Assembly (NCBI GenBank): GCA_027023305.1
Contig: JALVVR010000048.1
Coordinates: 233,579 to 297,578, forward strand
From: Campylobacterales bacterium
GTDB taxonomy: Bacteria; Campylobacterota; Campylobacteria; Campylobacterales; QNZT01
Direction: 5' to 3'
Length of the DNA: 64,000 nt
Part shown: positions 21,683 through 34,135 of the stretch, piece after piece
How the letters are laid out: every line of letters begins with the position of its first letter
How positions within the stretch are numbered: the first letter of the stretch is position 1
Notes under the pieces: generated by a model
Database searches by the model: none
What the model saw: the letters and a program-made list of their open reading frames with translations, nothing else
What the model was told of the DNA's origin: nothing
Position numbers and translations under genes: made by a program

Positions 21683-22864
21683 CTATCTTGTAGGATCCCA
21701 AAAAGCATCTATCATGATAAGTTGAGATATAAGGTTTAAACTATCTTCATAATAATTCTCATGATTGTTTTTTATCTTGTTATATATTGAATTTAAATAG
21801 CTTTGGTATTTTGGACTAAGCTTAGAAGCAACTCCAAAAGGTGCTACAAAAGCAGTTGAAAAATAATTTCCTATCACAGTTCCATCAAGTCTGTATCCTG
21901 ATTTTATATTTTTAGGATTTTTATTTGATTTTTGATATATCCACTCTGTCATCTTTAAAGCTATATATCTTGAGATTTTATCATTGTTTAACAGTGCATC
22001 AAGTCCTACACGAAACGGAACTCTACAAGCATTATAATAGTATGAGTTATCCTCCTCTTCTAAAAAATGCCTAGGAGCTGTATGATATCCTCTTTTATCT
22101 ATAACTACAAAATCACTAACTAAATCTGTTTTATTTTGTGCCAATCTTTGGATTTTTAAAAGAGTTTTTTGACAAGCTTTTATAGCTTTTAGCCATTTTT
22201 CATCTTTTGTAACCCTATAAAAAGCTCTAAAATGACTCAGCATAAAATCTGAAGTTCTAGGAGTGTATTGGTTGTATTTTTTACCATTTTGTTCTTCCCA
22301 ATCTCCCAAAAGTGGCAAATTACTATCCTTCCCCATAGTGTATCTTGATATATCATTTATGATTTTTTTAGCCTCTTTTAAGTAGTTGATTTTACCTCTA
22401 CTTCCCCATTGAGCATTAGCTAACAAAAGTGCATAAGCTATATCTGCATCTCCATCATAAGCACTATCTTTCCCCTTTTCCGTTGAAGGAACTTTCCAAT
22501 TCATAAAAGAATGTACTATATCACTTGGATTTGCTTTTACAAATCTATACATACCATCAAAAATATTTTTTGCTTCTTTATCATATCCTGCCATGATAGC
22601 TACAATCATCATGCCATATCCTTGTCCTTCAGATACTGTATAAGTTTTATCTTTTTTATCAAATGCTACTCTACAATACCCTCTTTTACATACTATAAAA
22701 TCTCTTTTCCATATATCATAATAATTCTCAACATTTGAAACAAGTTTACTCTTAGGATATAAAGTAATTTTAGCACTATGATAATACCCCGCATTTTGTG
22801 GAAATGGATAGTTTGCAGAAAACAAAGATAAAACAAATATCCCTAAAAAAGCAAAAATCTTCAT
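21683..22864 (-). CDS. Glycoside hydrolase family 8 (endoglucanase/BcsZ-like)
   Basis: A 393-residue exported protein (signal peptide about 17 residues) with the GH8 alpha-barrel motifs: VSEGQGYGMM with general acid E79, YDGDADIAYALLLA with D139/D141, and TPRTSDFMLSHFRAF. GH8 enzymes cut beta-1,4-linked glucan, chitosan or related chains; secreted members often sit inside polysaccharide synthase operons (BcsZ, PssZ). Here it is the last gene of the six-gene operon, one base after the deacetylase. The polymer is more likely a partly deacetylated amino-sugar or mixed glycan, since a deacetylase is present and BcsB is not. Confidence 0.85.
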   Translation of the reverse strand: MKIFAFLGIFVLSLFSANYPFPQNAGYYHSAKITLYPKSKLVSNVENYYDIWKRDFIVCKRGYCRVAFDKKDKTYTVSEGQGYGMMIVAIMAGYDKEAKNIFDGMYRFVKANPSDIVHSFMNWKVPSTEKGKDSAYDGDADIAYALLLANAQWGSRGKINYLKEAKKIINDISRYTMGKDSNLPLLGDWEEQNGKKYNQYTPRTSDFMLSHFRAFYRVTKDEKWLKAIKACQKTLLKIQRLAQNKTDLVSDFVVIDKRGYHTAPRHFLEEEDNSYYYNACRVPFRVGLDALLNNDKISRYIALKMTEWIYQKSNKNPKNIKSGYRLDGTVIGNYFSTAFVAPFGVASKLSPKYQSYLNSIYNKIKNNHENYYEDSLNLISQLIMIDAFWDPTR

Positions 22865-24664
22865 CTATATGCCTTGTAAAGTTATAGTTTTAGTAGAATT
22901 TGCAGGAAGATGCAAAACTCTTATTAACTTAGGATTTTTTGCAAATACTTTTACTTTTAAGTTTCTTATTTCTACTGGATTGTTATTTATTATGGTTACC
23001 TTATTGGTTTTTAAATTGTAACTCAACTTAATATTTTTCCTTAGAGCTACCCTTAGAGCTAAATGTCGTCCATCTAAGATTTTATACTCTGGATGTTTTT
23101 TTAAGTATCTAAAAAAGTTTTCTACTATATTTATATTTGATTTATAAGCAAAAAGATGGGTATGCATAGAAAAAGTATATATACCATCTAGTGCTGTTAC
23201 AAACTTCATCTCCTTTATAACCTGTTTTAAGATATCTCTTTGACTCCAATCTAGATTAACCAAAAATGAGTAATCATCTGTCCCTCGTCTAGGGATATAT
23301 AAAAGTCTTGGAAATTTTTTCTCAAAACGAGGATAAAGATAATCTTTTATTGCTCCAAGAACATAAAAATATCCTGATGATTGCAAATGTTTTTCCATCA
23401 AGTCATTTAACTCTTCTCTTGGTGGTCGAAAACCTATAATCGGTTCTCTTGCAAACTTATCTATTATCTTTTTAGAGTTTGTAGTTTCATTTATGATATA
23501 TTTTTCACTTTGCCCTACTATTTTGGTATGAGTTGTTGAGTGAGAAGCATACTCTACATAAGGATTTGAAGCTAATGATTTTGTTAACTCTATATTTTGG
23601 GGTCTTGTAGCTATATTTGCCACTATAAAAGCTGTTACAGGAATTTTATACTTATATGCCAAATCTGCAAATTTTCTAAAATTTTGATACTTATACTCAG
23701 TATCTTCTGATATAAAAACAACTGACTTTTGATCTATATATGGATACATTTCTACTACAGCTTTTTGAGATAAAAACTTTATCATACCAGCTACCATCTT
23801 TTTAAAATCATCTCTATATTTTTTAATATCATAAAAAGAGTAACTAGGCAAAGATGTATATATCCATTTCCCTTTTCCTAAATACCCATGCCAAGCTAGA
23901 CCAGATTCATTTATTTTGATACTATCAGCTAAGTTTTTCGTAGTTGGAGGTGTTGCCTGATTATAAGCATTTGCAAAAATATCTGCTGTTTTTATGTTTG
24001 TATTATATAAAGGAATACTGTCATAAGCTGATACTTCAAGAAGTTGTCCATTATTTAAATAAGTAGAAAAAGGTGACAAAAGTTTTAATGTTATATTTAA
24101 TCCTCCTTTAAACTCAGCAAATCCTCTTTTTGTTAATGAAAGGCCAGTGATAGAGTTTACAAACTTATCAGCCCTATATTTACCATTTCCATCTCTATAT
24201 CCAGATATATAGTTAAAAAAGAGTGCTCCACCATTTTGAACAAATCTCTTAATATCTTTTTTATTATCCTCAGACAAAGATTGGGCATCTAGTAAAAATA
24301 CTATTGAGTTTTTATCAAGTGAAGTTATTTGACTAAGAGGTACTATATTTGTATTATAACCAATAGAGGAGAGAAGGAGCACAAACTTATTTATATGATT
24401 TACATAATCTTCCTTGCTTAAACCATTTCTCATATAATAACTTGCTGTATATTTTGAAGTACAAAGATATATAGGTTTTTTAGTCATATTTGGAGGTAGA
24501 ACAAAACCATTTGTTTCATCATTTTGTAAAAGCAGATTTTGTTTAGCTCTTACCTCTTTTATCTTATAAAAAGTACCTAACATCACTAAAAATAGTACTA
24601 AAATAGTAACCAAAAGTATTGAAGTATAATTATCTTTCTTTTTTAAACCCAATTGTGCTGTCAT
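22865..24664 (-). CDS. Membrane-anchored polysaccharide deacetylase with amidotransferase-like domain
   Basis: A 599-residue protein in four parts. Residues 16-34 are one membrane anchor. Residues ~60-300 form a periplasmic domain with features of the class I glutamine-amidotransferase-like fold (VQNGGALFFNYISG, GKGKWIYTSLPS). Residues ~310-540 are a NodB-like carbohydrate esterase with E320-D321, H375-x3-H379 (SHSTTH), R413 (FRPPREE) and H501-x-H503. The last ~55 residues look like a small beta-sandwich. It probably removes acetyl groups from the growing glycan in the periplasm. Motif 1 has ED in place of DD, so activity needs testing. Confidence 0.82.
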   Translation of the reverse strand: MTAQLGLKKKDNYTSILLVTILVLFLVMLGTFYKIKEVRAKQNLLLQNDETNGFVLPPNMTKKPIYLCTSKYTASYYMRNGLSKEDYVNHINKFVLLLSSIGYNTNIVPLSQITSLDKNSIVFLLDAQSLSEDNKKDIKRFVQNGGALFFNYISGYRDGNGKYRADKFVNSITGLSLTKRGFAEFKGGLNITLKLLSPFSTYLNNGQLLEVSAYDSIPLYNTNIKTADIFANAYNQATPPTTKNLADSIKINESGLAWHGYLGKGKWIYTSLPSYSFYDIKKYRDDFKKMVAGMIKFLSQKAVVEMYPYIDQKSVVFISEDTEYKYQNFRKFADLAYKYKIPVTAFIVANIATRPQNIELTKSLASNPYVEYASHSTTHTKIVGQSEKYIINETTNSKKIIDKFAREPIIGFRPPREELNDLMEKHLQSSGYFYVLGAIKDYLYPRFEKKFPRLLYIPRRGTDDYSFLVNLDWSQRDILKQVIKEMKFVTALDGIYTFSMHTHLFAYKSNINIVENFFRYLKKHPEYKILDGRHLALRVALRKNIKLSYNLKTNKVTIINNNPVEIRNLKVKVFAKNPKLIRVLHLPANSTKTITLQGI

Positions 24665-24972
24665 ATTATTATCTCTCTTTCCTCAAAAAACAAGTACTTT
24701 TTAATAGCTTTGATATTACTACTTCCTGAACTCTTTTTTGACATGGTAGCTCGTTTAATCTCTCTAGCTTTATAAACTGAGTATGCTAAAATTCCAAACA
24801 ACATAGTTATTGTTGTTATACCTATAATCGCATAAGCCAACACTGTCATATAATCTAGTTTTGCTAAATCAATACCTGAAAGCTTATATTGACTTATATT
24901 TAAATCATTAATATTAAACTTAGGTAATTTAAAAATATCAAAATCAAATTTTGGTAGCTTAAAATCTATCAT
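24661..24972 (-). CDS. Small single-span membrane protein of the polysaccharide operon
   Basis: A 103-residue protein I do not recognise. An N-terminal repeated motif (FKLPKF twice, about residues 4-18) is followed by one membrane helix (about 44-67) and a basic tail. Its position, directly behind the GT2 synthase and overlapping it and the deacetylase by 4 bases each, is that of PgaD, the small partner needed by the PgaC synthase. A subunit that stabilises or regulates the synthase is the likely role, by position only. Confidence 0.6.
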   Translation of the reverse strand: MIDFKLPKFDFDIFKLPKFNINDLNISQYKLSGIDLAKLDYMTVLAYAIIGITTITMLFGILAYSVYKAREIKRATMSKKSSGSSNIKAIKKYLFFEEREIII

Positions 24973-26270
24973 ATTTTACCCTTTCTCTCTATCTTTCCCC
25001 AGTTCATCTCTATACCAAACACTTCTTCAAATGATGATAATACTTTAGCAATATTTGTTATATTTACAAAGATAAGTCTATAGTATAAGGAGTATAAAAG
25101 TAGTTTCATGTTCTCTTTTGTAACAGATAGACAGTAAATACTAGCAGATATATCTAAAATTGTAAATATTATCCACCAATAAATAAGCATTTTAGTCTGA
25201 TCTACACTAAATGCTACAAAAATTATAAAAAAGTTAGCAAATATAGAAACAATAGGCCAAAGAATTGACTCAAAAACCATATACCACATTACAAAAGCGA
25301 TAGTAGGCTCACTAAAATCAAAAAGTCTTACTTTATGTTTTAGTATAGCTTGTAAAATCCCTCGTGTCCATCTATATCTCTGCTTTATCAAATCAACAAT
25401 ACTCTCAGGAGCTTCAGTATAACTGACAGCATCTATCTCGTACTCTATCTTGTATCCCTTAGCAATAAGACTAAGAGTAAGATCACAATCTTCAGCAAAT
25501 GTATCTGTTGTATAAAGACCAGTTTTTATAACTGCATCTTTTTTAAAAAGTCCTATGGGACCAGGAACTATATTTACAAGTTTAAAATATGCTTGTCCAT
25601 TTCTGACTAAGTTTAACCCTTGTACATACTCTAAAGCTTGAAGATTTGTCCAAAGATTTTCACTATTTGTTACATAAACACTTCCAGCAACTGCTGCTAA
25701 TTTCTCATCTTTTTCAAAATACCTTATCATGAGCTTCAAACTATCTTTAGAGATTTTTGAATCTGCATCAACTACTAAAAAATAATCCCCTTTTGCTTTA
25801 GATATACCATAGTTTAAAGCTAATGCTTTTCCAGCATTTTTTTTTGTTAGCACTCTTAGTCTTTTATTTCCATCATTAAACTCCATACTCTTTGCTATCA
25901 AGTAAGTATTATCACTACTTCCATCATCTATAACTATAACTTCAAATCTTGGATAATTTTGTTCAATAAGGCTTTTTATAGAGTTTTTTATGGTCTTTTC
26001 TTCATTAAAACAAGGAACTAGTATCGAGATAAAAGGTGCTTTGTCTTCATCAAAATTTTCATAATTATTTTTTAGATTTTTTCTAAGATTTAGCATAGAA
26101 AAAAGTAAAAGCAAAAAATACCTCACAATAACAAATAGTGAGAAAATCAAAATCAAATATGCACTACTTTTTATCCAAGGATTATTTAAATCTGGCATAT
26201 TAGTCATATCTTTCAAAAAGTATATTGCTAAACCAAGTAGTAAAGTATAAGAGAGAAATAATTTTATCAT
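24969..26270 (-). CDS. Processive glycosyltransferase family 2 (PgaC/IcaA-like polysaccharide synthase)
   Basis: A 433-residue inner-membrane GT2 enzyme. Two N-terminal membrane segments precede the catalytic domain, which has DDG at 115-117, DAD at 168-170, ED at 260-261 and the processive QxxRW motif (Q297-RYRW). About three further membrane segments follow. Size and layout match PgaC/IcaA (poly-N-acetylglucosamine synthase, about 440 residues); it lacks the PilZ domain of BcsA. The sugar is unproven. It would extrude the chain into the periplasm, where the next two enzymes act. Confidence 0.85.
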   Translation of the reverse strand: MIKLFLSYTLLLGLAIYFLKDMTNMPDLNNPWIKSSAYLILIFSLFVIVRYFLLLLFSMLNLRKNLKNNYENFDEDKAPFISILVPCFNEEKTIKNSIKSLIEQNYPRFEVIVIDDGSSDNTYLIAKSMEFNDGNKRLRVLTKKNAGKALALNYGISKAKGDYFLVVDADSKISKDSLKLMIRYFEKDEKLAAVAGSVYVTNSENLWTNLQALEYVQGLNLVRNGQAYFKLVNIVPGPIGLFKKDAVIKTGLYTTDTFAEDCDLTLSLIAKGYKIEYEIDAVSYTEAPESIVDLIKQRYRWTRGILQAILKHKVRLFDFSEPTIAFVMWYMVFESILWPIVSIFANFFIIFVAFSVDQTKMLIYWWIIFTILDISASIYCLSVTKENMKLLLYSLYYRLIFVNITNIAKVLSSFEEVFGIEMNWGKIERKGKI

Positions 26271-27487
26271 ACTGAAACTTCTTTATGGATATTTATCATA
26301 CTTTCAAAAAGACTAAATCTTTGCATAAGTATATCTTTACCTCTACTAGGAGTAGTATTTAACAAAACAAATATTTTATCATTCTCATCACTATAGTGAA
26401 TAAAATCATACTTTCTTATTTGTTTATTACTCTCTTCATTTAAGTACTTATTTTTGATACTTAAAACACTATAAAGTATTTTATTTTGATTTAAACTTTC
26501 AATCAGAAGAATAAGTTGCTCATATGTAACTATATTGGAGTAGTTATGACTCATAAAGTCTTTAACTTTTTTTGTATAAACATTTATATCTATTTGACTC
26601 TCTACATACTTTATATACTCCATAAAATCAAAGTTTTTTGTCAAAAGTAAATCAGCACCTAACTGCTCATAATACTCCTTATCACACTCACGAAAAGAGT
26701 TTTCATTTGTAAAATATATAAGTTTTGCACAACTTGAATGCTCTTTTAATTTTTTTATTTTTGTAGGTTCTAGTTGTTTTTTTGTATTTATTATCAAAAT
26801 ATTTATGTCACTATCTATATTATCAGTGTTAAACTCTATATCTTCATGAGAAAAAATAGACTTATTAGCTTTGATAAAATCATCTTTATCACTTAAAAGA
26901 GAAATCTTTACTTTAGGATTATTTAATGTTTTAAAAAATATTTCTATCTCATTTTGATAACTGTTTTCCTCCATAAATTTTTCACTTTTATAATAAACGT
27001 CACAAATATTTTTTAAAAAGTTATGAAGTAAAAATCCATTTTTTGTTTGTGAATTATATGAAAACACTATCTTTTTGTTGTGATATTGCACCATACTTAT
27101 AAGTGAGACTATAAGATTTTCCACTTGGGATGAGTAAAACTTACCAAAAAACAATTCACTTGAGTTTAAAAAAACAACTTCATAAGAGCTATTATTTATA
27201 ATCTCATGAAGTTCATTACTTATCCCTTTAACTCCATACTCACTAAATTTATCTAACCAACTATTTTTTAAAAACAAAAACTTACTACTCTTTACTACCT
27301 TTTTTGAATCTTTTATATTTGTAGGTAGTTTTTCTAAATCTTCATATACTTTATCAAAGTTATTTGCACTGATACAGATGGACGACTTAGTTTTTAACCG
27401 TTGATTTAACAAAGTAAAAAACTCCATAGCAAAGTAGTTATCACTACAATCTATGGCAAACACTTCACTTTTAAATATACTTTTCAT
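26267..27487 (-). CDS. Putative c-di-GMP receptor (BcsE/PelD-like) of the polysaccharide operon
   Basis: A 406-residue soluble protein without signal peptide. Residues ~1-190 look like a P-loop-less NTPase fold (SYEVVFLNSSELFF, NKKIVFSYN). Residues ~195-300 resemble a response-regulator-like fold ending EYYEQLGADLLLTKNFDFMEYI. Residues ~315-400 look like a degenerate GGDEF domain: R358-K-Y-D361 is an RxxD I-site placed 5 residues before DENDK, where GGDEF normally stands. BcsE has the same order (NTPase-like, REC-like, degenerate GGDEF) and binds c-di-GMP through RxxD; PelD is similar. So this may switch the synthase by c-di-GMP. I infer this from pattern alone. Confidence 0.55.
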   Translation of the reverse strand: MKSIFKSEVFAIDCSDNYFAMEFFTLLNQRLKTKSSICISANNFDKVYEDLEKLPTNIKDSKKVVKSSKFLFLKNSWLDKFSEYGVKGISNELHEIINNSSYEVVFLNSSELFFGKFYSSQVENLIVSLISMVQYHNKKIVFSYNSQTKNGFLLHNFLKNICDVYYKSEKFMEENSYQNEIEIFFKTLNNPKVKISLLSDKDDFIKANKSIFSHEDIEFNTDNIDSDINILIINTKKQLEPTKIKKLKEHSSCAKLIYFTNENSFRECDKEYYEQLGADLLLTKNFDFMEYIKYVESQIDINVYTKKVKDFMSHNYSNIVTYEQLILLIESLNQNKILYSVLSIKNKYLNEESNKQIRKYDFIHYSDENDKIFVLLNTTPSRGKDILMQRFSLFESMINIHKEVSV

Positions 27488-27496
27488 TTATCATTC

Positions 27497-29740
27497 CTAA
27501 TCAAAATCTTGCACAAAATTTAATCCACATGAAGTAGCTTTTTGTGAAGAGTATTTACTTGTTGTTTGTTCACAGTTCAAATTCATCATAAACTCTCTTG
27601 TAAAATTATAATTTCCCTGCAAAGAGTATGAAAAGATTTTCTCTTTACTTTTAAAAGAGTATCCAGGCTTTAATCCCAACTGTAAATTTCCATTTGAAAA
27701 ATCAATACTTGGTTTGTATTCTAAACTTGTTACATCATAAGTTTCTACCGGATTTGAACAACTTTTAAGATTAGAATTATGTTCATAATTTTCACTAAGA
27801 GCTAAAATATGAGCTATATTAGATGATTTTTTGTAAAAAAATGGCAAATACATTTGTGCAAAAATATTATTATTGTTATCATCATAATGGTTAAAATCTA
27901 CTCCAAAATGAGCACTCTGTAGGTTATCTAACAAAACATCATCACTCAAACCAAAGTGAGTTACATTCACTTTATTTTTAACCATACAAGTTTTATAGTT
28001 TAAAAATACACCATTTGTATAAGCGAGTTCTGCCCTTAAAGAATGAATACCAACTGAGCCTTTTAAACTAGCATACGGAGATAAGATACTCAAACTTCCA
28101 ACTTTTGAAAACTCCACTCCAGCACTAAATCTTTTTGAATATGCCTCAAGTGTTACTCCACTACCATTTAAACTATCGACTGAGTCTTTAAAGTTATAAT
28201 TATTAACTTCTATACTTGATCTAATCCCACTACTTAAAGCCAAATTATCAACACCAACTTTATAATTTTGGTATCTTATATCACTATCACTGATACTATT
28301 TATCCCTAAGTATAGATTTTTTTTATTAGTATATTTTCTCTTTTTTAAAGAGTTTGGTTTGTTTGCATAAACTATGTTATTTACACTAAATACATCATTA
28401 AATGCTGGTATTTTATGACTTCCCTCACTAAGATATATATCTTTATATCTAGTTGGTTTTAAAATAGGTTTATTCACAGCCACTAAAAGTGAATCAACAT
28501 AGTGTTGTAAGGTTTGGCTTTTAGCATCTCTTTTGTATGATAATTCTCTAGTTAGTGAAGTAAGAGTAGCTTTAGCTTTTGCCCAGTTTTCATCTGTTTT
28601 TGTCTGCATAAGATTATAAGCATAGTGATACTTTGCATCAAATAAAAGTGAATTTGGATGATTTGCTACTTTAGAAAACTCTACTATTGCATTTTTATAA
28701 TCTTTATTTTTTTCATATATTGATGCTAACTGATACCTAGCTGTATCATCATTTGAAACTAATCTAAGATAATCTTTTAGATAAGGAATTGCTAACTTTT
28801 TATCATCATAAAAATAGTATATATCCCCTATATTTTTTAAAACCTTTACATCATGATAAAGACTGTAATACTTTTTATAACTAGATATTGCTTCTTTATA
28901 TCTTTTTTTGGAAGCTAATATTTGAGCTTTTTGTAAAAGTTCACTCTTTTTCTTATTTTGTTCAATACTAGTAACATTTTTATAAAGAGTTCTTGTTGTT
29001 TGGTTTAAATTTTTTATAGGTTGTATTATATTTTTTGCTTCATTTAGCCTTCCATCCCAATAAAGATTTTGAGCTAAAGCAAGTCTTAATTTATTATTAT
29101 TTGGGTATTTACTCAAAAGAAATTTTAGTTTTGATATTGTTTGATTTTTATTATTAGTTTGATTTAAAGTATATACTAAATTGTCAACACTTTTAGGATC
29201 TTTACCTAAAGAATTTTCATAATTTTTTAATTTTATCTTTGATTTTAACTCTTTTATTTTAGGATTATTTTGGTCTCTCAATTTATTTAGTATAAGCAGG
29301 CTTTTTTTAAACTGTTTCCTTTTATAAAAAATCTTCGCTGCTAAGATGTGAGTATTTGTATATAAATCAACACCATTTTGCAAACACCCAACATAACTAA
29401 CTAAAAACTCTGTATCACCTGAACTATTATATACTTTTAAAAGCTGATTATTCACATCTGCATGAGGCATTGCAGTTTTTTTAGATAGAGTTGATAAAAA
29501 ACTAACTTTTTTGTATAACCTAACAGCTAACTTATCATGATACTTTACTTTTAATATCTCACTTAAATACTTTTTACTAAGAGTATAATTATGCTCTTTT
29601 ATAAAATATTTTGCAAGTAAATACCTATCTCTAATATCACTAGGATTATTTGCCACACAACTTTCTAAATAATTAACATCAATCTCGATAGCTCTTATAG
29701 AGCCTAAAAATACCATTACTATTAATATAAACTTTTTCAT
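27497..29740 (-). CDS. Outer-membrane polysaccharide export protein (TPR plus beta-barrel, PgaA/BcsC-like)
   Basis: A 747-residue protein: signal peptide (about 17 residues), TPR-like helical repeats over residues ~20-430 (for example LAIPYLKDYLRLVSNDDTARYQLASIYEKNKDY, split here as LAIPYLKDYL ... ARYQLASIYEKN), then an amphipathic-strand C-terminal region of ~270 residues ending in a phenylalanine-containing strand, as expected for an outer-membrane barrel. PgaA and BcsC share this plan. It is the first gene of the operon; its ATG lies in a hairpin and has no clear ribosome-binding site. Confidence 0.78.
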   Translation of the reverse strand: MKKFILIVMVFLGSIRAIEIDVNYLESCVANNPSDIRDRYLLAKYFIKEHNYTLSKKYLSEILKVKYHDKLAVRLYKKVSFLSTLSKKTAMPHADVNNQLLKVYNSSGDTEFLVSYVGCLQNGVDLYTNTHILAAKIFYKRKQFKKSLLILNKLRDQNNPKIKELKSKIKLKNYENSLGKDPKSVDNLVYTLNQTNNKNQTISKLKFLLSKYPNNNKLRLALAQNLYWDGRLNEAKNIIQPIKNLNQTTRTLYKNVTSIEQNKKKSELLQKAQILASKKRYKEAISSYKKYYSLYHDVKVLKNIGDIYYFYDDKKLAIPYLKDYLRLVSNDDTARYQLASIYEKNKDYKNAIVEFSKVANHPNSLLFDAKYHYAYNLMQTKTDENWAKAKATLTSLTRELSYKRDAKSQTLQHYVDSLLVAVNKPILKPTRYKDIYLSEGSHKIPAFNDVFSVNNIVYANKPNSLKKRKYTNKKNLYLGINSISDSDIRYQNYKVGVDNLALSSGIRSSIEVNNYNFKDSVDSLNGSGVTLEAYSKRFSAGVEFSKVGSLSILSPYASLKGSVGIHSLRAELAYTNGVFLNYKTCMVKNKVNVTHFGLSDDVLLDNLQSAHFGVDFNHYDDNNNNIFAQMYLPFFYKKSSNIAHILALSENYEHNSNLKSCSNPVETYDVTSLEYKPSIDFSNGNLQLGLKPGYSFKSKEKIFSYSLQGNYNFTREFMMNLNCEQTTSKYSSQKATSCGLNFVQDFD

Positions 29741-33127: not shown

Positions 33128-34135
33128 ATGGGACTTTACAAGATAGATAGCTCAGGTAAAGTTCTAAGTGGAACAAAAGAAGAAGAGAAAAAACTAGAAG
33201 TAGGTGGTAAAAACATGGAACAAAAAAAGAAGTTTCAAAACATTAATATTTTTGCTAAACAAGTTTTAGAAAAGATGAAAAAAGATGAAGTTTTACCATC
33301 TCCATCTAACTATCTCAACTACTTTGAAAAGATGTTATTAGAAAAATCTCCTGCTCAAAAAGCCTCTATGGAAGAAGTCTTAAACTTAGAAAATACCCAA
33401 GAGTTAGAAAAAGAGTATATGCAAAAAGTTGATATATACTTAAACAACAGCTATGATAAAACTAAACAACTTTTAGAAGATATAAATACTAGCTATACAA
33501 AGATAAATAAAATAAAATCTTTTATAAAAAACAAAAGTAGTGAACTTAGTAAAAACCCTACTTCTACAAATATAAATGCTTTTGATGCAAAAATATCACA
33601 AGCTTTAAATTCACTAGAGAGTGAACAAAATAAAGTAAAATCAGAGTACCTAGAATTAGCAGAAGTTATGAAAGATTTCAACAAAGAATCTATCTTTGAT
33701 AAAAAATATGGAGTTTATAACAAAAAATATCTTTTTGAAGCTATTCAAAATGAACTTAAAAATCTAAAAAATCTAGAATACACAAATAGTGTTATAGCTT
33801 TTAACATAAACAGTGATGTACTAAAAAATATAAAACTAAACAGTGATAAAGATATCGTTATAAAAACTATTGCTAAAATCATATTAAATCGTTTAAGAAG
33901 AAGTGATGTTTTAGCTCACTATGAAAATGGTATCTTTTTACTACTTTTAAAACATACAAATTATGACAATGCCCAAAAAGCAGTAGATAGCATAAAAAAC
34001 TTTGTGTCATTTTCAAACTTTATTATTGATTCAACTCCTATCCAAGCTCGTATAGATACTTCTATAATAGAAATGAAATCAAACATGAGTGTTGATGAAG
34101 TTATAAGTGATGTTATCAAGGGTCTTATAAAATGA
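33128..34135 (+). CDS. Degenerate GGDEF-domain protein
   Basis: A 335-residue cytoplasmic protein. Residues ~35-185 are helical with coiled-coil character (LEEDINTSYTKINKIKSF-like heptads around 115-185). Residues ~187-330 fit a GGDEF fold (DKKYGVYNKKYLFEAIQ, SVIAFNINSD), with RRSDVLAHYENGIF where RxxD and GGDEF should stand. The I-site R..D is kept but the catalytic GGDEF is replaced by YENGI, so it should bind but not make c-di-GMP. A second start at 33215 (M30) has a good AGGTGG site; the first has none. It lies between clpP and def. Confidence 0.72.
   Translation: MGLYKIDSSGKVLSGTKEEEKKLEVGGKNMEQKKKFQNINIFAKQVLEKMKKDEVLPSPSNYLNYFEKMLLEKSPAQKASMEEVLNLENTQELEKEYMQKVDIYLNNSYDKTKQLLEDINTSYTKINKIKSFIKNKSSELSKNPTSTNINAFDAKISQALNSLESEQNKVKSEYLELAEVMKDFNKESIFDKKYGVYNKKYLFEAIQNELKNLKNLEYTNSVIAFNINSDVLKNIKLNSDKDIVIKTIAKIILNRLRRSDVLAHYENGIFLLLLKHTNYDNAQKAVDSIKNFVSFSNFIIDSTPIQARIDTSIIEMKSNMSVDEVISDVIKGLIK

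Follow-up and report, generated by a model that had tools for sequence, protein, structure and literature searches.

A predicted BcsE-type c-di-GMP receptor with two RxxD motifs encoded beside a PgaC-like polymer synthase in Campylobacterales

Domain architecture, motif conservation, predicted structure and gene neighborhoods together indicate that a 406-residue protein of a Campylobacterales genome, encoded on the minus strand at 26267..27487 of the 64,000-nucleotide stretch of DNA analysed here (hereinafter the window), is probably a soluble BcsE-type c-di-GMP receptor with two I-sites, which would activate a PgaC-like synthase of a polymer other than cellulose. The dual RxxD motif of this receptor matches the dual I-site of Escherichia coli BcsE. 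Its relationship to BcsE is remote, and we do not file it as BcsE itself because it is not matched by the Pfam BcsE model and is not found in a cellulose context. A preliminary description of the window, made from sequence by eye, had proposed a c-di-GMP receptor on the strength of the motif in the last domain; this idea is supported by the present analysis and is strengthened by a second RxxD that had been overlooked.

The receptor gene and the domains of its product

The reading frame, whose strand was absent from the preliminary description, was delineated by translation, and its product was assigned through an AlphaFold2 model and Foldseek. The gene starts 9 bases past the end of a gene for a 747-residue TPR protein (27497..29740, minus strand) and overlaps by 4 bases the gene of a GT2 polymer synthase (24969..26270, minus strand), in agreement with the earlier placing of the gene between an export pore and a synthase. 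No hydrophobic segment was found in the receptor (the maximum 19-residue average is 1.03), so no transmembrane segment is predicted.

Three domains can be delineated. Residues 1-189 (26921..27487, minus strand) adopt in the model a RecA/KaiC-like NTPase fold, as judged by VIA-align, and a motif scan detected no Walker A (GxxxxGK[ST]). Residues 190-300 (26588..26920, minus strand) form a receiver-like domain (REC*), recognized by the predicted alternating beta/alpha pattern, weak profile matches and alignment, in which the expected phospho-accepting Asp position is, by eye, occupied by Asn. This domain contains the overlooked motif, R266-E-C-D269 (26681..26692, minus strand), identified by its invariance and by the hhalign register as the counterpart of R306ATD309 of BcsE. 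Residues 301-406 (26267..26587, minus strand) comprise a degenerate GGDEF-like domain (GGDEF*), defined by an AlphaFold2 model of the domain and VIA-align, in which the active diguanylate cyclase signature GG(D/E)EF is absent and DENDK stands in its place. Here R358-K-Y-D361 (26405..26416, minus strand), the counterpart of BcsE R415TGD418 by conservation and the hhalign register, lies exactly as originally described, five residues ahead of the degenerate signature (D361-FIHYS-DENDK, residues 367-371), which is the RxxD-x5-GGDEF spacing of an I-site. A conserved basic residue, R390 (26318..26320, minus strand), which had likewise escaped notice, is a candidate third I-site residue in view of its R/K conservation and of the corresponding distances in PleD and BcsE.

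Detection and conservation of the receptor family

Searches with the single receptor sequence yielded weak, unconvincing matches in Pfam and NCBIfam, no match at E <= 10 among PDB sequences, and no match in genome contigs or plasmids. A six-sequence alignment used against genome contigs retrieved 8 loci in metagenome-assembled genomes of Campylobacterales (6) and Sulfurospirillum (2). With the receptor profile, the PDB sequences produced 12 rows, all weak, with E-values no better than 0.021, 7 of which are response regulators matching the receiver-like domain (E 0.024-0.37) and none of which is BcsE. Among related genomes, family matches were found in 21 of 59, including the genome of the window (E <= 0.01). 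Neither the Pfam GGDEF model (PF00990) nor the Pfam BcsE model (PF10995) matched any of the 19 family members scanned; PF10995 also gave no match in the receptor's own genome and exceeded its cut-off in none of 20 genomes, the one weak match (G011, E 0.016, with stops inside) being to a sequence outside the family.

Two alignments were used, one of 19 members (the window protein and 18 of the first 20 neighborhoods fetched, with L032 and L040 omitted) and one of 37 (the family frames of 31 neighborhoods, five from smaller loci and the window protein), in which L040 lacks the C-terminal domains and L014 and L025 are cut by contig ends. The RxxD of the GGDEF-like domain is kept in all 35 sequences that extend across it (of the 37, L014 is truncated and L040 is without the domain), and that of the receiver-like domain in 34 of 35 (L025 is cut, L040 is without the domain and L116 has lost the motif). 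Of the 36 sequences, L040 among them, that are not gapped in the column of R390, 26 carry R and 5 carry K. When L040, L014, L025 and L116 are set aside, the 33 complete relatives have a median pairwise identity of 22%, and only 6 of 196 ungapped columns are invariant, namely R266, D269, E296, Y304, R358 and D361; four of these six make up the two RxxD motifs. Six columns drawn at random from the 196 include at least 2 pairs three apart in 0.7% of draws, even without the letters R and D being required. Judged from the alignments, the RxxD of the GGDEF-like domain is no chance match, because it is kept in every covering sequence of the family.

In the N-terminal domain, an intact Walker A (GxxxxGKS) occurs in 2 of the 37 family sequences (L043:1456-2841 and L014), the ten receptors of the second operon type described below have GK followed by L or M, and receptors of the window type are without Walker A; the alignment thus points to a graded loss of the ATP site across the family. 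There are also shortened members. The genome of the window encodes a second one (L116:9090-9872, G000:C47; 260 residues), which is without the NTPase domain and keeps the RxxD of the GGDEF-like domain, that of the receiver-like domain being lost. L040:8744-9865 shows by eye two NTPase-like repeats and no C-terminal domains, in an operon that is otherwise similar and where the pore reads as two frames.

Predicted structure and the relationship to BcsE

The full-length receptor was modelled by AlphaFold2 from an input of nine sequences, the best model having a mean pLDDT of 78.8 and a pTM of 0.53 (pLDDT 68.1-71.3 for the other four models). The earlier reading had the domains in the order NTPase, receiver and GGDEF, and this order is recovered in the predicted full-length structure. 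A Foldseek search of the PDB with this model placed E. coli BcsE chains at ranks 1-5 (E 1.6e-10 to 6.1e-9, over 476-490 columns), with only KaiC beyond them among the matches listed. The TM-scores of the BcsE matches are low (0.26-0.29 by query length, rmsd 19-25) because the domain arrangement either differs from that of BcsE or is poorly predicted, as the pTM of 0.53 allows; hence, the relative placing of the domains disagrees with BcsE. In VIA-align, the best 50 matches of the full-length model were filled by the N-terminal domain, which aligns with KaiC over 170 residues (residues 1-189; Z 15.8, rmsd 3.2).

Residues 301-406 were also modelled alone (pLDDT 80.7). The GGDEF-like fold predicted for them by eye was found in VIA-align, where BcsE occupies ranks 1-4 and 6-8 (Z 6.3-6.8, 88-101 residues, rmsd 3.0-3.6), PleD is tied with it at rank 5 (Z 6.5) and PelD stands at ranks 20-21 (Z 5.5), all of these scores being modest (Z < 8). 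BcsE, PelD or other GGDEF structures account for 46 of the best 50 rows, as judged by structure title or known identity. Foldseek gave no significant match for residues 301-406 alone, the best being BcsE 6ybb (E 0.21). PelD is absent from the best 50 rows for the full-length model, where one domain can fill the list.

Comparison of the 19-member family alignment with nine BcsE proteins by hhalign gave a score of 33.0 over 290 columns, with an E-value of 0.0035 for this pair and an HH-suite probability of just 9%. Control scores did not exceed 18.0 for 150 column-permuted BcsE alignments and were 19.1 for the reversed alignment and 20.9, over 16 columns, for an unrelated GT2 alignment. The register puts R266 on R306 and R358 on R415 of BcsE, and the segment R266-E296 is aligned with R306-E336 without a gap. 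In the nine-sequence BcsE alignment, R306 is invariant and the Asp of the receiver motif is replaced in three Caballeronia sequences. Among subsets of the family, the receptors of the second operon type scored 28.8 (60 controls, <= 17.2) and those of the window's own operon type 22.6 (control maximum 21.6); the solitary paralogs, at 18.3, fell below their control maximum of 24.6 and lend no support. As gauged by these alignments, the sequence link to BcsE is moderate, and the case is carried by structure, motifs and domain order.

The polymer operon and its distribution

The genes around the receptor, all on the minus strand, form an operon for the production of an extracellular polymer. The TPR protein upstream, identified by TPR matches and conserved beside the receptor, is a probable outer-membrane export pore, with a barrel suggested by reading of its sequence. 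The synthase is PgaC-like, with a QRYRW motif, according to Pfam, alignment and the PgaC_IcaA model, against which it scores 212.9 bits, under the cut-off of 422.3. It was described earlier as a synthase without PilZ, and indeed no PilZ match was detected in the synthase or in the whole genome. Because PgaC is the nearest relative of the synthase, the product is likely to be a partly deacetylated amino-sugar polymer. The gene that follows (24661..24972) encodes a conserved protein of 103 residues (57-80 in relatives) with one hydrophobic segment, predicted to be a transmembrane helix, which makes it a candidate membrane anchor. It is followed by genes for a 599-residue polysaccharide deacetylase (22865..24664; Polysacc_deac_1, E 3.1e-11) with one N-terminal hydrophobic segment as a membrane anchor, and for a 393-residue GH8 glycoside hydrolase (21683..22864; Glyco_hydro_8, E 2.4e-26).

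The small protein has no convincing family in Pfam or NCBIfam. In 18 aligned sequences (that of the window and those of 17 loci, out of 21 where the protein was detected), I52, T53, T56, F59, G60, Y64, Y67, K68, R70 and E71 are invariant, within the pattern ITxxTxxFGxxAYxxYKxRE, which is mostly followed by Y[LIV][FY]FE. It is a possible anchor of the receptor. We do not claim homology with BcsF, since the alignments share size and one hydrophobic segment and no clear sequence pattern.

We compared 31 neighborhoods from 28 genomes, loci on very short contigs not being extended. The order of pore, receptor and synthase seen in the window recurs in 12 of them, 9 with GH8; among the 12, the synthase of L034 is cut by a contig end, and L040 has the shortened receptor and the divided pore. 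A second operon type, with the order receptor, pore, synthase, small protein and deacetylase and no GH8 match, is present in 10 (the pore of L114 is assigned by position only). In the remaining 9 no EPS operon gene is in view, although some contigs are short (L039) and the receptor of L047 lies at a contig end; thus, the link with polymer synthesis does not extend to the whole family. Five members (L039, L041, L042, L044 and L047) have no EPS operon in view, and in three of these the protein is a short form from which the NTPase domain is missing; outputs besides EPS are therefore possible for the receptor. A gene near these five members encodes a product that by eye resembles the glycyl-tRNA synthetase beta chain.

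When 397 genomes sampled from the phylum were searched, 13 gave strong family matches (E 1e-50 or better). A further 46 gave weak matches alone (E 1.3e-8 or worse), almost all of them in the receiver part; we treated these as response regulators or chance similarity and left them out of the family. The deacetylase of the operon (E <= 1e-40) is found in 11 of 397 genomes sampled likewise, and all 11 are among the 13 with a strong receptor match; these come from five families by database labels and are therefore not fully independent. The other two (G003 and G006) have the short form only, without the NTPase domain.

The genome of the window (99.97% complete, 5.28% contamination) contains 9 GGDEF matches and 4 EAL matches. 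Neither BcsB nor PilZ was found in it, so that no cellulose (Bcs) system was detected with the receptor, and BcsR and BcsG are absent from the operon. The BcsQ model has three matches in this genome, none of them in the operon, and matches 14 of 14 control genomes as well; the three are therefore taken to be general ParA/MinD-type proteins. One of the 9 GGDEF matches is encoded in the window itself (33128-34135, plus strand; PF00990, 34.1 bits): it is a degenerate GGDEF protein with RRSD-x5-ENGIF, and hence a candidate for another I-site receptor.

Comparison with known systems

In E. coli BcsE, degenerate receiver and GGDEF domains supply R306ATD and R415TGD (PMC11470070, PMC7439463), which in tandem hold an intercalated c-di-GMP dimer with a Kd of about 140 nM, compared with about 2.5 uM when the GGDEF site acts by itself (PMC11470070). 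The N-terminal domain has an inactive NTPase fold; it forms dimers and contacts BcsF (PMC11470070, PMC7439463), and the GGDEF domain is without the P-loop and first helix (PMC7439463). R390 of the receptor lies at about the same I-site distance as H445 of BcsE (PMC7439463) and at about that of the third I-site residue of PleD (R359, D362, R390; PMC7288161). The receptor resembles BcsE (PDB 9fnn, 9fp0, 6ybb, 6tj0) in the predicted order of RecA-like, receiver and GGDEF domains, in both RxxD motifs in register, in the degenerate GGDEF signature, in having no transmembrane segment, and in the nearby genes for a pore, a synthase and a small one-helix protein. It differs in length (406 residues versus 523), in being missed by PF10995, in its operon, which combines a PgaC-like synthase with a deacetylase and GH8 and is without a PilZ-bearing BcsA, and in the absence of BcsB from its own genome.

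The Pga system comprises a deacetylase and a TPR pore, as does the operon of the receptor, and the PgaC-like GT2 synthase and small membrane protein are further common features; a separate soluble receptor and GH8 are the extra components of the window operon. None of the E. coli pga operon proteins has a known c-di-GMP-binding motif (PMC8461298). PelD of Pseudomonas aeruginosa, which has a degenerate GGDEF domain with RxxD and serves a PilZ-free polymer machine (PMC8461298), is a structural match of the last domain of the receptor. However, four transmembrane helices are predicted in PelD, which also has a GAF domain, and we set it aside as the closest relative. Of the two proteins named in the original "BcsE/PelD-like" label, BcsE is the better comparison because the receptor has no transmembrane segment and carries RecA and receiver folds in place of the membrane and GAF parts.

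PssE of Listeria monocytogenes has a membrane anchor, and its GGDEF domain, in contrast to that of the receptor, is recognized by Pfam. It has a degenerate GGDEF domain with RxxD five residues before the signature, is encoded in an EPS cluster, binds c-di-GMP with a Kd of 0.79 uM and is required for EPS (PMC4125290). The same arrangement, RKYD-FIHYS-DENDK in an EPS cluster without PilZ, is present here; a RecA-like or receiver domain and a second RxxD are not described for PssE in the accessible part of its report (PMC4125290).

Proposed mechanism and alternative explanations

We propose that the two RxxD motifs, one each in the degenerate receiver and GGDEF domains, most likely close round an intercalated c-di-GMP dimer in the manner of their counterparts in E. 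coli BcsE, and that the degenerate RecA-like N-terminal domain most likely serves self-association and docking to the inner membrane, plausibly via the conserved one-helix protein whose gene separates those of the synthase and the deacetylase. The closed receptor with bound c-di-GMP would keep the PgaC-like synthase active within a complex, and c-di-GMP would thereby turn on the synthesis and export of a partly deacetylated polymer by a synthase without PilZ.

Receiver-GGDEF tandems are common, and the protein could conceivably be a degenerate REC-GGDEF protein that evolved locally from an ordinary diguanylate cyclase and acquired a RecA-like domain by fusion, in which case the likeness to BcsE would be convergent and c-di-GMP would still be bound by the I-site. 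The tie of PleD with BcsE for the last domain (rank 5, Z 6.5) and the weak sequence similarity to BcsE in two of the three subsets are compatible with such an origin. We nevertheless regard it as unlikely, considering the RecA-like N-terminal domain common to the receptor and BcsE, the extra receiver RxxD at the same place (R266 to E296 ungapped on R306 to E336), the short stretch from the first strand of the GGDEF-like domain to its RxxD, by eye as in BcsE, and the five best full-length Foldseek matches, all of them BcsE.

Less probable still is a purely structural role, in which both RxxD motifs would be kept for protein contacts or folding, c-di-GMP would remain unbound and the synthase would be controlled otherwise, for instance through a PgaC/PgaD-like membrane interface. 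The RxxD spacing, which is exactly that of an I-site, the predominance of basic residues at position 390, the GGDEF and EAL proteins in the genome, and the single predicted helix of the small protein, as opposed to the two helices of PgaD, all argue against such a role. In its favor, a small membrane protein is present in the window operon too, and the E. coli PNAG synthase is reported to sense c-di-GMP through PgaC and PgaD (PMC8461298). We give very little weight to control of the polymer through another ligand, whether a different cyclic dinucleotide or a nucleotide bound by the RecA-like domain: the full Walker A of 2 of the 37 family sequences would suit it, but the window protein is without Walker A, and its I-site pattern is that of c-di-GMP receptors.

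Implications

In published accounts, BcsE is an accessory of cellulose secretion, and the synthases of those systems carry a PilZ sensor of their own, which is why the sensor role of BcsE is hard to separate from that of PilZ. A receptor of the same design beside a PilZ-free synthase, in a genome with no PilZ match, offers a test, provided by nature, of whether such a receptor suffices to pass c-di-GMP on to a polymer synthase. Among the titles and opening lines of abstracts listed for the mostly open literature, none described a receptor of the BcsE type from Campylobacterota or from any system other than cellulose secretion, which is weak evidence of absence. In a more speculative vein, and with rather less than even confidence, we can envisage the BcsE-type dual-I-site receptor as an older, general c-di-GMP module that was borrowed by cellulose secretion. 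In Campylobacterota, this module would be the sole link between c-di-GMP and the PgaC-like synthase, operating with a one-helix anchor and without PilZ or BcsQ/BcsR, and the relatives with Walker A would preserve a KaiC-like ATPase state gated by c-di-GMP.

The present analysis points to a predicted family of c-di-GMP receptors that is missed by the Pfam BcsE and GGDEF models. Furthermore, the presence of a BcsE-like sensor in a polymer cluster with a non-cellulose-type synthase suggests that the sensor design of BcsE is used more widely than in cellulose secretion.
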